DNA from: Candidatus Omnitrophota bacterium
Lineage (GTDB): Bacteria; Omnitrophota; Gorgyraeia; Gorgyraeales; Gorgyraeaceae
NCBI GenBank assembly: GCA_018824145.1
Contig: JAHJHC010000114.1
Span: forward strand, 1 to 46,391
DNA length: 46,391 nt
Direction: 5' to 3'
Shown here: positions 3,284-32,790 of the stretch, piece after piece
How positions within the stretch are numbered: position 1 is the stretch's first letter
Layout of the letters: each line of letters starts with the position of its first letter
Notes under the pieces: model-generated
The model's database searches: none
What the model was told of the DNA's origin: nothing
Seen by the model: the letters and a program-made list of their open reading frames with translations, nothing else
Program-made: the position numbers and the translations under genes

Positions 3284-3532
3284 TCAATTAAAAATTTGCA
3301 ATTGCAAATTTTTAATTGATCCTGAGGAGTCCGCCGCGGCGGACAACGAAGGATCTCTATTAAAATCTGCCCTTGGCAAATTCTTATTGATCCTGATCCG
3401 CCTCAGGCGGAGAAGTATCTTTAATGAGATCCTTCGTCGCTTCGCCCCGTACCGAAAATCTTAATATATTAATACTTTCGGTACGGGGCTTCGCTCCTCA
3501 GGATGATTTGTCGGGAATTTTCCCGACAAATC
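3284..3532. repeat. cluster of palindromes: 36-bp perfect palindrome, three units of a REP-like family, and a terminal hairpin overlapping the hppA stop
   Basis: 3284-3319 perfect palindrome; units at 3318-3357(-), 3389-3420(-), 3426-3506(+); hairpin GATTTGTCGGGA/TCCCGACAAATC 3505-3532. Confidence 0.85.
3445..3488. mobile_element. 44-bp MITE-like palindrome (13-bp terminal inverted repeats CCCCGTACCGAAA/TTTCGGTACGGGG) with flanking CTTCG duplication
   Basis: CTTCG at 3440-3444 and 3489-3493; removing 49 bp restores a 32-bp unit collinear with 19281-19312. Confidence 0.65.
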
Positions 3533-13423: not shown

Positions 13424-14290
13424 CTATTGAATAATTAGTTTTGGGTTTTTAGGCAATATCACACGATCCTCATCAACCAGATAGATTGCCTTATCACTAT
13501 ATGTCACGCTTTCATTGTTTAGTATCCTTACATTGCCTCTGGCAACCACGCATTTTACACGCCGGGTAGTCGGCCTAAAATAAACATCTATACGGTCAGC
13601 TAATATATCAGTCCGTATATTTTCAACTCTCACATTATTAAGAAAAGTCGCTTTATTTTTCTTGTAATTCAATTCAAGAGGACCGTCGCATGTAATAATC
13701 GTATCCTGCCTGTCCTCCGACCTGTCCTCCGAAGCCTTGGCGTAGGAGGAAGCCTTGGCGTAGGAAGATACTCTGTACCCCAAAGTATCTGTCTCTGCAG
13801 ATCCTATATTAGCTACTACATCCTTTTTCAACATAGCGGTTCTATGTCTTAAATCGCAAAACGCACCTTTACCATCGGCCTGAAAATCAGCCCTGTTTAT
13901 ATTTACATAACTATCTGTAAAAACATTCTTAGCCTCTGCATTCCAGTCTAAAGAATCTGTTTTTAAAGTTGCCCCATCTGTTGATTTCAACACTACATCA
14001 TCTTCAAGATGGACTATGTTATCTTTCCTATTAAAGTCACCGAACCTGGCCTTTAATTTAAAGGCCTTATCCCCTGAAAATGCTATTGCTGAAATCTCAT
14101 CGAATTTAATCCTATCATCCACTACCTCTGCTGAGGCGCCGTTTAACTCCCATTTTTTCTCTCCGCCGTCTTCATATTGCACAAGAGAAAAACCACCAAC
14201 CTCCTGATTAGGTTCTATTCCCTCCTGTGCTAAGGAAAAAGGACACACATTTAAAATCAACAAAATAGTCAATACAATTGCTTTACACAT
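13424..14290 (-). CDS. LptC/LptA (OstA)-like LPS transport periplasmic protein; apparent LptC-LptA fusion
   Basis: Signal peptide, LptC-like N-terminal half, LptA/OstA-like C-terminal half (ITCDGPLELNYKKNKATFLNNVRVEN...ADRIDVYF), directly upstream of lptB. Confidence 0.75.
   Translation of the reverse strand: MCKAIVLTILLILNVCPFSLAQEGIEPNQEVGGFSLVQYEDGGEKKWELNGASAEVVDDRIKFDEISAIAFSGDKAFKLKARFGDFNRKDNIVHLEDDVVLKSTDGATLKTDSLDWNAEAKNVFTDSYVNINRADFQADGKGAFCDLRHRTAMLKKDVVANIGSAETDTLGYRVSSYAKASSYAKASEDRSEDRQDTIITCDGPLELNYKKNKATFLNNVRVENIRTDILADRIDVYFRPTTRRVKCVVARGNVRILNNESVTYSDKAIYLVDEDRVILPKNPKLIIQ
13709..13768. repeat. two copies of a 30-bp in-frame module, one nested in the other
   Basis: Inner copy CCTGTCCTCCGAAGCCTTGGCGTAGGAGGA at 13721-13750; joining 13709-13720 to 13751-13768 gives a 30-mer differing at one base. 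Confidence 0.85.
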
Positions 14291-15933: not shown

Positions 15934-16592
15934 TTGTACCGTTTGCGAATTTAGCTACCCACCTGTCCCTTTTTTCAAGATTAAAAGTGTCCCCATTGTA
16001 AAAAATTGAAAGAAAACCCCATACTACTGTGTCTATATATAAGGAGGTGATAAAATATGGCTAGAATAGGTAGGGTTTACAGTGGTTGTTATTGCTATCA
16101 CATTATTACAAGAGGCAACCAAAAACAAAATGTTTTCTTAAATGAAAAAGACTACGCTAGATATGTTGGCATATTAAAAAGAGCTAAAAGAAAATACAAT
16201 ATTCTACTTTTTTCCTATTGCCTTATGCCAAATCATGTACATCTTTTGATTGAAACAAAATCATCTAGTAATATGTCGAACTTTATGCGCTGGATTAATC
16301 GAGGGTACGCAGCATATTTTAATACAGCTTACCAGAAAACAGGCCACTTGTGGCAAGGCAGGTTTAAGAGTAAACCTATATTAAAAGGGCAATATTTAAT
16401 TCATTGCGGAAACTATATCGAAGCTAACCCTGTTAGAGCAAATATTGCAGATGATATAGCAAACTATAAATGGAGTAGCTATAAAGAAAGATGTCTATTA
16501 TCTAAAAGTTCCATACTAGATGGGATAGTTAGGGGACAGTTTTAATCTTAAAATTGGGGACACTTTGATAGGTGAATTCGCAAACGGTACAA
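15934..16592 (+). mobile_element. RAYT/Y1-transposase element with 18-bp perfect terminal inverted repeats and internal GGGACA inverted repeats
   Basis: TTGTACCGTTTGCGAATT (15934-15951) / AATTCGCAAACGGTACAA (16575-16592); inner AAGATTAAAAGTGTCCCC (15977-15994) vs GGGGACAGTTTTAATCTT (16532-16549), 17/18. Confidence 0.8.
16057..16545 (+). CDS. REP-associated tyrosine transposase (Y1_Tnp / IS200-like)
   Basis: YHIITRGNQKQNVF, HUH motif MPNHVHLLIE, YIEANPVRANI and W(S)SY motifs. Confidence 0.93.
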   Translation: MARIGRVYSGCYCYHIITRGNQKQNVFLNEKDYARYVGILKRAKRKYNILLFSYCLMPNHVHLLIETKSSSNMSNFMRWINRGYAAYFNTAYQKTGHLWQGRFKSKPILKGQYLIHCGNYIEANPVRANIADDIANYKWSSYKERCLLSKSSILDGIVRGQF

Positions 16593-19170: not shown

Positions 19171-19244
19171 GGCTCTTAGACAATTATATCACAACTATAA
19201 TTATTTGACCAGTTGGGGAGTTTTTCGCTGCTTTTCCCGACTGG

Positions 19245-19312
19245 TCATCCTGAAGCCCGAAGGGCTGAAGGATCTCTCATGAGATCCCTCGTCACTTCGT
19301 TCCTCGGGATGA
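19245..19312. repeat. inverted pair of 32-bp REP-like units
   Basis: Minus unit 19245-19276 and plus unit GAGATCCCTCGTCACTTCGTTCCTCGGGATGA 19281-19312, separated by TCAT; outer GACCAGT/ACTGGTC inverted repeat 19207-19246. Confidence 0.85.
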
Positions 19313-22384: not shown

Positions 22385-22423
22385 AAATTAGGGACACATC
22401 CCTTTGGGATGTGTCCCTAATTT
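22385..22423. repeat. GGGACACATCCC palindrome (18-bp arms, 3-nt loop) forming the 3' end of the YfhO gene
   Basis: AAATTAGGGACACATCCC-TTT-GGGATGTGTCCCTAATTT. Confidence 0.92.
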
Positions 22424-24729: not shown

Positions 24730-24800
24730 AAAATTCGGGACACATCCCAATTTTCAAACTTTGTAACTACATGTGAAAATTGGGATGTGTCCCGAATTTT
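24730..24800. repeat. GGGACACATCCC palindrome (27-bp arms) between YfhO and pilin genes
   Basis: AAAATTCGGGACACATCCCAATTTTCA (24730-24756) pairs exactly with 24774-24800. Confidence 0.93.
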
Positions 24801-31852: not shown

Positions 31853-32638
31853 TCAAAACAGACTAAGTTGCCTTGCACCTTTTATAAGGTCCGTCGCCTT
31901 CATCAAATCTTCAGGAGTATCTATACCGATTGTATCAAATTTTGTCTCTATGACCTTTATCTTGTACCCATTCTCTATTACTCTAAGCTGTTCCAGTTTT
32001 TCACTTTTTTCAAGTCTGGATTGAGGCAGACTCTTGAAGGTAAAAAGAAAATCTTTGGTATATGCGTAAATGCCGATGTGTTTATAGTGAGTGACGATTC
32101 CTCGCTCACCTGCAGCCCGCCTGTCCCCCGAAGCCTTGGCGAAGGAGGATAACAAATATGGTATAGGGGCGCGGGAAAAATATAACGCAAAGCCTTTCCT
32201 ATCCATCACAACCTTTACCACATTGGGATCCAAAAAGTCTTTTTCATTTCCAATCTTATGACAAAGGGTCGCCATGTGTATGGAGTCATCCCTTAAAATA
32301 GGATCTACCACATCATCTATCATCGTCGGATGTATAAGAGGTTCATCTGCCTGGATATTAACCACGACCTTTGTATCGATAGAACTCACGACTTCAGTAA
32401 GCCTGTCAGAACCACTTTTATGTGCCTTTGAAGTATATATTACCTTTGCACCAAAACCCTTAGCAAAATTATAAATACGCTTATCATCAGTTGCTATAAT
32501 AATGTCTTCTATTGTCTTTGCCTTCTTAGCATTTTCCCATGTGTGTTGGATAACTGACTTCCCGCACAAATCTGCTAAAAGCTTTCCTTCAAACCTTGTG
32601 GAACCATAACGTGCCGGAATTATCCCTATAACTTCCAT
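31853..32638 (-). CDS. kdsB: 3-deoxy-manno-octulosonate cytidylyltransferase
   Basis: IGIIPARYGSTRFEGKLLADLCGKSVIQHTWE...VVNIQADEPLIHP...YKHIGIYAYTKDFL...GIDTPEDL. Confidence 0.95.
   Translation of the reverse strand: MEVIGIIPARYGSTRFEGKLLADLCGKSVIQHTWENAKKAKTIEDIIIATDDKRIYNFAKGFGAKVIYTSKAHKSGSDRLTEVVSSIDTKVVVNIQADEPLIHPTMIDDVVDPILRDDSIHMATLCHKIGNEKDFLDPNVVKVVMDRKGFALYFSRAPIPYLLSSFAKASGDRRAAGERGIVTHYKHIGIYAYTKDFLFTFKSLPQSRLEKSEKLEQLRVIENGYKIKVIETKFDTIGIDTPEDLMKATDLIKGARQLSLF
32120..32149. repeat. 30-bp in-frame repeat module inside kdsB
   Basis: CCTGTCCCCCGAAGCCTTGGCGAAGGAGGA, 28/30 identical to 13721-13750; encodes SSFAKASGDR. Confidence 0.88.
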
Positions 32639-32649
32639 AATTTAAATGA

Positions 32650-32790
32650 GCACATCACTTACGGAGCACGAAGTGCGACGTAAGTGATAAGTGCGAATTT
32701 ATCCCGAGCAACAGCGAGGGATCTCATATGAGATCCCTCAGACCTTCGGTCTTCGGGATGACCAGTCAGATGAAAGGTAAAAATCTACAA
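32650..32790. repeat. intergenic palindrome cluster with REP-like 32-bp units
   Basis: ATCACTTACG/CGTAAGTGAT (32654-32663/32679-32688); 24-bp perfect palindrome GAGGGATCTCATATGAGATCCCTC 32716-32739; plus-unit 32730-32761. Confidence 0.85.

Follow-up and report, generated by a model that had tools for sequence, protein, structure and literature searches.

A 30-bp palindrome lying in frame in kdsB and other genes of Omnitrophota has features of a REP-like mobile hairpin

How do two unrelated genes of one genome come to encode nearly the same ten amino acids? The window analysed here (the whole stretch of 46,391 nucleotides from a Candidatus Omnitrophota bacterium) carries a 30-bp sequence in kdsB and a second copy in an lptA-like gene. 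A sequence-only reading had taken the shared segment for a mobile protein-modifying module, the two copies being 28/30 identical in a common coding orientation and frame. Comparison of the sequences confirmed this identity, and a chance match was ruled out since 0 of 100 dinucleotide shuffles of the window gave a match to the 30-mer. The two genes had also been said to carry the same decapeptide; the encoded segments are indeed related but SSFAKASGDR and SSYAKASEDR (kdsB and inner lptA-like copy, respectively) agree at 8 of 10 residues. The features are listed in Table 1.

Table 1. Element copies and host genes in the window
Feature	Positions	Strand	Sequence or evidence
30-bp palindromic element copy in kdsB	32120..32149	+	CCTGTCCCCCGAAGCCTTGGCGAAGGAGGA; coding strand -, peptide SSFAKASGDR
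kdsB host gene, 3-deoxy-manno-octulosonate cytidylyltransferase, 261 aa	31853..32638	-	Pfam, PDB, ortholog alignment
LptC/LptA-type host gene with nested pair (SSYAKASSYAKASEDRSEDR)	13424..14290	-	Pfam LptC + LptD_N, family alignment
Inner (nested) 30-bp element copy, lptA-like gene	13721..13750	+	match to kdsB copy, nesting pattern
Left 12 bp (CCTGTCCTCCGA) of outer, interrupted element copy	13709..13720	+	sequence, nesting pattern
Right 18 bp (AGCCTTGGCGTAGGAAGA) of outer element copy	13751..13768	+	sequence, nesting pattern

Judging from its product, which matches Pfam CTP_transf_3 (E 3.7e-58) and solved KdsB structures in the PDB, the first host ORF is a genuine kdsB. On its coding strand the element amounts to exactly ten codons. 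The closest KdsB matches outside the own genome are Omnitrophota proteins, 72-76% identical, and when these orthologs were aligned the window KdsB exceeded them by about 9 residues in the stretch from FSRxxIPY to YKHIGIY, so the SSFAKASGDR segment is an insertion relative to them. An unrelated filler of equal length was not seen in the relatives, whose loop is shorter. In an AlphaFold2 model of the window KdsB (27 homologs, mean pLDDT 88.5), residues 163-181, comprising the insert and its edge, form the sole segment with pLDDT below 50. The placement of the decapeptide in a variable KdsB loop, proposed from the letters of the sequence, was borne out.

The site in the lptA-like gene consists of two copies of the element, one within the other (Table 1). 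Among the family genomes, 12 have an lptA ortholog that aligns across the loop, and in 11 of these the insert is absent. The twelfth, G006 (L435), has its own copy in the same lptA loop, in opposite orientation and encoding VRRSLGEGG. The simplest reading would be that two relatives acquired the element independently at one tolerant place in lptA, in different frames. The orthologs from which insertion is read are at closest 78% (KdsB) and, for the nearest lptA-like protein, 63% identical as proteins, a distance that counts against the case for movement.

To define the unit, 265 copies were aligned, drawn from own-genome matches (counted by pattern searches), relatives, element-rich genomes and fetched regions. 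Information content reaches background on both sides of a 30-bp core, the ends of which coincide with those initially assigned to the kdsB copy. The consensus is CCTGTCCNCCGAAGC[C/T]TT[G/A]GCGNAGGNGGA, with ends CCTGTCC and GGNGGA, and the element is an imperfect palindrome. Its predicted fold comprises six pairs TCCNCC/GGNGGA, a 3x3 internal loop GNA/GNA, three pairs GC[C/T]/[G/A]GC and a TT loop. Three varying pair positions covary (T-A with C-G, G-C with T-A and C-G with T-A), Watson-Crick pairs being found in 142 of 208 copies against 97.6 expected, 163 against 76.8 and 196 against 102.2, respectively. These counts were reached by 0 of 2000 shuffles, a figure that is no strict probability since related copies are non-independent. 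The internal loop is variable at its middle base, whereas its outer G and A hardly change. A GNA/GNA loop can be bridged by tandem sheared G.A pairs, a motif known to be stable, which together with this conservation suggests that selection likely acts on the folded form of a single strand, be it DNA or RNA. Folding energies fit a hairpin for consensus copies. The KdsB copy folded alone gives no strong hairpin, because of a C/A mismatch in its stem; matched copies fold better. An Rfam family search of the window returned no match.

Nesting as in the window lptA site was observed for 13 of the 265 copies, this site included. In each case the inner copy lies between CCGA (once CCGG) and AGC, and the outer halves rejoin exactly around a 30-bp inner copy, without duplicated target; nested units of any other length would go undetected, because the search was restricted to inner copies of 30 bp. 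Outside nested cases the target preference is weak: a GA^AG junction was found in 11 of 218 non-nested copies, compared to a background of 0.6% per position. Copies located exactly at the tip of a long palindrome (stems of at least 10 pairs) were 4 of 232, against 0 at random positions, as illustrated in L125 where the element sits at the tip of an unrelated palindrome, GCCGTAGGGCAGGTTTA^AACCTGCCCTACGGC. Targeting of hairpin tips as a general rule was therefore dropped, since it is real for few copies only. Arrays of the element also occur in element-rich genomes, their periods being 30 bp and 18 bp. A further family of palindromes (GAGGGATCTC...GAGATCCCTC), dispersed between genes, is present in the window at 3412-3457, 19239-19312 and 32715-32767, and similar repeats in other genomes are interrupted by the 30-bp element (L114).

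Amplification in Omnitrophota is patchy. A near-consensus copy occurs in 79 of 386 genomes, with 0 in a backward-read control, and copy number ranges from about 95 in G207 (two mismatches) down to 0 in other genomes. Elsewhere the backward-read control gave 0 in the search from which the G207 count derives, one match in another search and two in a third. In the class to which a Micavibrio MAG belongs (Alphaproteobacteria per record), 19 of 290 genomes contain near-identical cores, including four copies on one contig of more than 2.28 Mb in G453. Such cores were also detected in two genomes recorded as Bacteroidota and in 30 stretches of viral contigs from IMG/VR, with 34-70% G+C. As judged by these matches, the element would occur across several phyla. 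This does not imply common descent of every case, since some Alphaproteobacterial copies share the core without the CCTGT end. The E. coli search gave no element match, and plasmids and cultured phages gave two weak partial matches in each set, nothing stronger. Six pieces of the element, of 14-17 nt, had no match in literature text (subscription papers and sequence supplements being outside its scope), and the literature, so far as searched, appears to contain no description of this sequence family.

Taken together, the element is discrete, repeated, covarying, self-nested, patchily amplified and inserted relative to orthologs. We regard it as probable that the 30-bp unit is a non-autonomous, REP-like mobile hairpin. 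It would move as hairpin-folded single-stranded DNA with an enzyme supplied in trans, as has been proposed for the folded single-strand movement of REP elements and IS200/IS605 relatives (PMC2817692, PMC6006769). Its preferred targets would be the CGA^AGC site of existing copies and, in some cases, the tip of another palindrome; insertion would leave no visible target duplication, and in a gene each copy would lengthen a protein loop by about ten residues, which are tolerated. MITEs fit less well: they measure 70-300 bp and have terminal inverted repeats and target-site duplication, in contrast to a 30-bp element with nested copies lacking duplication.

REPs are palindromes of 20-40 bp, single or grouped, mostly intergenic with a minority in genes (PMC3733652). 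The element resembles them as an imperfect palindrome in this size range with a covarying stem and high copy number, and its clusters and intragenic copies are likewise REP-like. One could therefore expect a REP in the strict sense, mobilised by a cognate REP-associated tyrosine transposase (RAYT), all the more as Y1 (HUH) transposase genes were found in 16/16 genomes tested, one of them in the window. These genes are present in element-rich and element-free genomes alike, however, and their number does not follow element copy number. The REP of a RAYT is recognised by two inverted copies flanking the gene (PMC2817692), whereas none of 30 Y1_Tnp loci from the 16 genomes was flanked by inverted element copies, and a single clear copy had a Y1 gene nearby, at a distance of up to about 1.4 kb. 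Coupling to a RAYT was thus not seen at these loci. Moreover, neither end of the element carries the GTAG or CGTC tetranucleotide. A strict REP/RAYT pair is accordingly possible but doubtful.

The Y1 gene of the window (16057-16545, + strand; RAYT-like, PF01797 match 16093-16425) is itself bracketed by 61-nt inverted repeats at 15934-15994 and 16532-16592, which are 82% complementary and contain GGGGACAC-type sequence. Perfect palindromes with GGGACACATCCC arms lie at 22385-22423 and 24730-24800, and possibly constitute a REP family related to this gene.

No transposase would be needed if the repeat were born from replication, its copies spreading when the polymerase slips or switches template at hairpins, or if palindromes exchanged sequence through gene conversion. 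The periodic arrays, the nesting at one internal site, the copies at tips of unrelated palindromes and the failure to find a transposase link would all agree with such an origin. Most copies, however, are found at sites unlike the element, in unrelated genes and in distant phyla, for which slippage alone is insufficient, and we consider this origin a serious alternative, if less probable than movement of a hairpin as above.

The element can be followed into coding sequences. Copy clusters were well inside an open frame of at least 200 codons in 74 of 243 cases (30%), compared to 61% when positions were drawn at random from these loci; element copies are therefore depleted inside genes. Both orientations occur, and all six frames are used in 65 distinct genes (stop-to-stop calls, uncurated): 20 AKASEDR, 13 ALAKAE, 11 RQGFGGQ, 10 PSPRLRR, 8 RRSLGEGG and 3 PPKPWRRR. 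Weighted by open frames, this usage was not clearly uneven (chi-square p = 0.08, 65 genes), the KdsB frame being slightly overrepresented (20/65, binomial p = 0.045 uncorrected for choosing the frame). Apart from that excess, the genes largely display the distribution over all frames which the sequence-only reading had set against its own proposal. That the element was selected to encode a hydrophilic AKASEDR-like decapeptide, as a useful or safe loop, is very improbable: the KdsB frame is the commonest and is shared by kdsB, lptA and pyrD of the own genome, but the lnt copy of that genome uses another, WRRR- and GFGGQ-rich frames are used as well, the lptA copy of G006 is reversed, copies are depleted in ORFs, and covariation is in nucleic-acid base pairing rather than in the peptide. 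What remains of the proposed module is a mobile-looking unit in frame in a KdsB loop, without a single chosen frame. The survival of genic copies would follow from a length of 30 bp, which leaves the reading frame intact, and from the scarcity of stops, five to six of the six possible frames usually being open; a protein-level function is unnecessary to explain them.

Palindromes inserted in proteins are best known from Rickettsia, where the Rickettsia palindromic elements (RPE-1, and the small RPE-4 and RPE-6) occupy unrelated, often essential genes in frame (PMC10969869; PMC3733652). The present element is likewise in frame in unrelated genes (KdsB, LptA, Lnt, PyrD and Pfam-validated genes of relatives). 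Compared by description, RPEs are about 150 bp long with a conserved peptide, whereas this far smaller unit is read in any of the six frames, lies either way round, is nested within its own copies at one constant position and is spread over several phyla. Intragenic REPs of the GTAG/CGTC super-families have been described in a number of bacteria, with the highest numbers in Opitutus terrae and R. conorii, and their authors argued that insertion into varied unrelated proteins opposes functional constraints (PMC3733652). Insertion in any frame similarly argues for DNA mobility and tolerance over selected peptides. The element accounts for the recurrent odd peptides FAKASADR, SLGEGG, LRQGFGGQA and PPSPRLRRTG in proteins of these genomes.

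Cyanobacterial small dispersed repeats (SDRs; Elhai et al. 2008, as cited by PMC3116915) are summarised as about 20 bp, possibly mobile, and single or tandem (PMC2884548). By description, the 30-bp element resembles them in being very small, possibly mobile and present in single and tandem copies. SDRs probably differ from it in sequence and hosts. The double-hairpin elements and GC clusters of fungal mitochondria are likewise very small, mobile and hairpin-forming, and insert into each other; they are mitochondrial, generally longer than 30 bp and made of two hairpins. The kind of element is already known from RPEs, intragenic REPs and SDRs, and what distinguishes this family is the 30-bp size, the missing tag, six-frame use, self-nesting and breadth. 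We would suggest more tentatively that the unit may be among the smallest transposable DNA elements, crossing phyla, with the GNA/GNA loop and the two-base loop recognised by a single-strand DNA enzyme and with hairpin tips (CGA^AGC), including its own, as targets; the odds are rather against this complete scheme. The precise 30-bp unit and its fixed nesting site make the mobilising activity testable.

The presence of the element in unrelated essential-type genes, pointed out for KdsB and LptA, holds for further housekeeping proteins. Pfam-confirmed hosts are PurL, DnaX and UvrA, together with PyrD, MnmA, ProB, ArgF, RecJ, ValS and PheT, in which the copy lies within a single Pfam domain match, as it also does in a nucleotidyl transferase, a lactate-racemase-type protein and ComEC. 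The gene pheT has the element in three different genomes (L105, L255, L293), and certain genes may therefore be repeated targets. In pyrD of the own genome (L004, C88), the element lies beside tandem copies of a heptamer, (GTGAACT)n, and each of the two is in frame.
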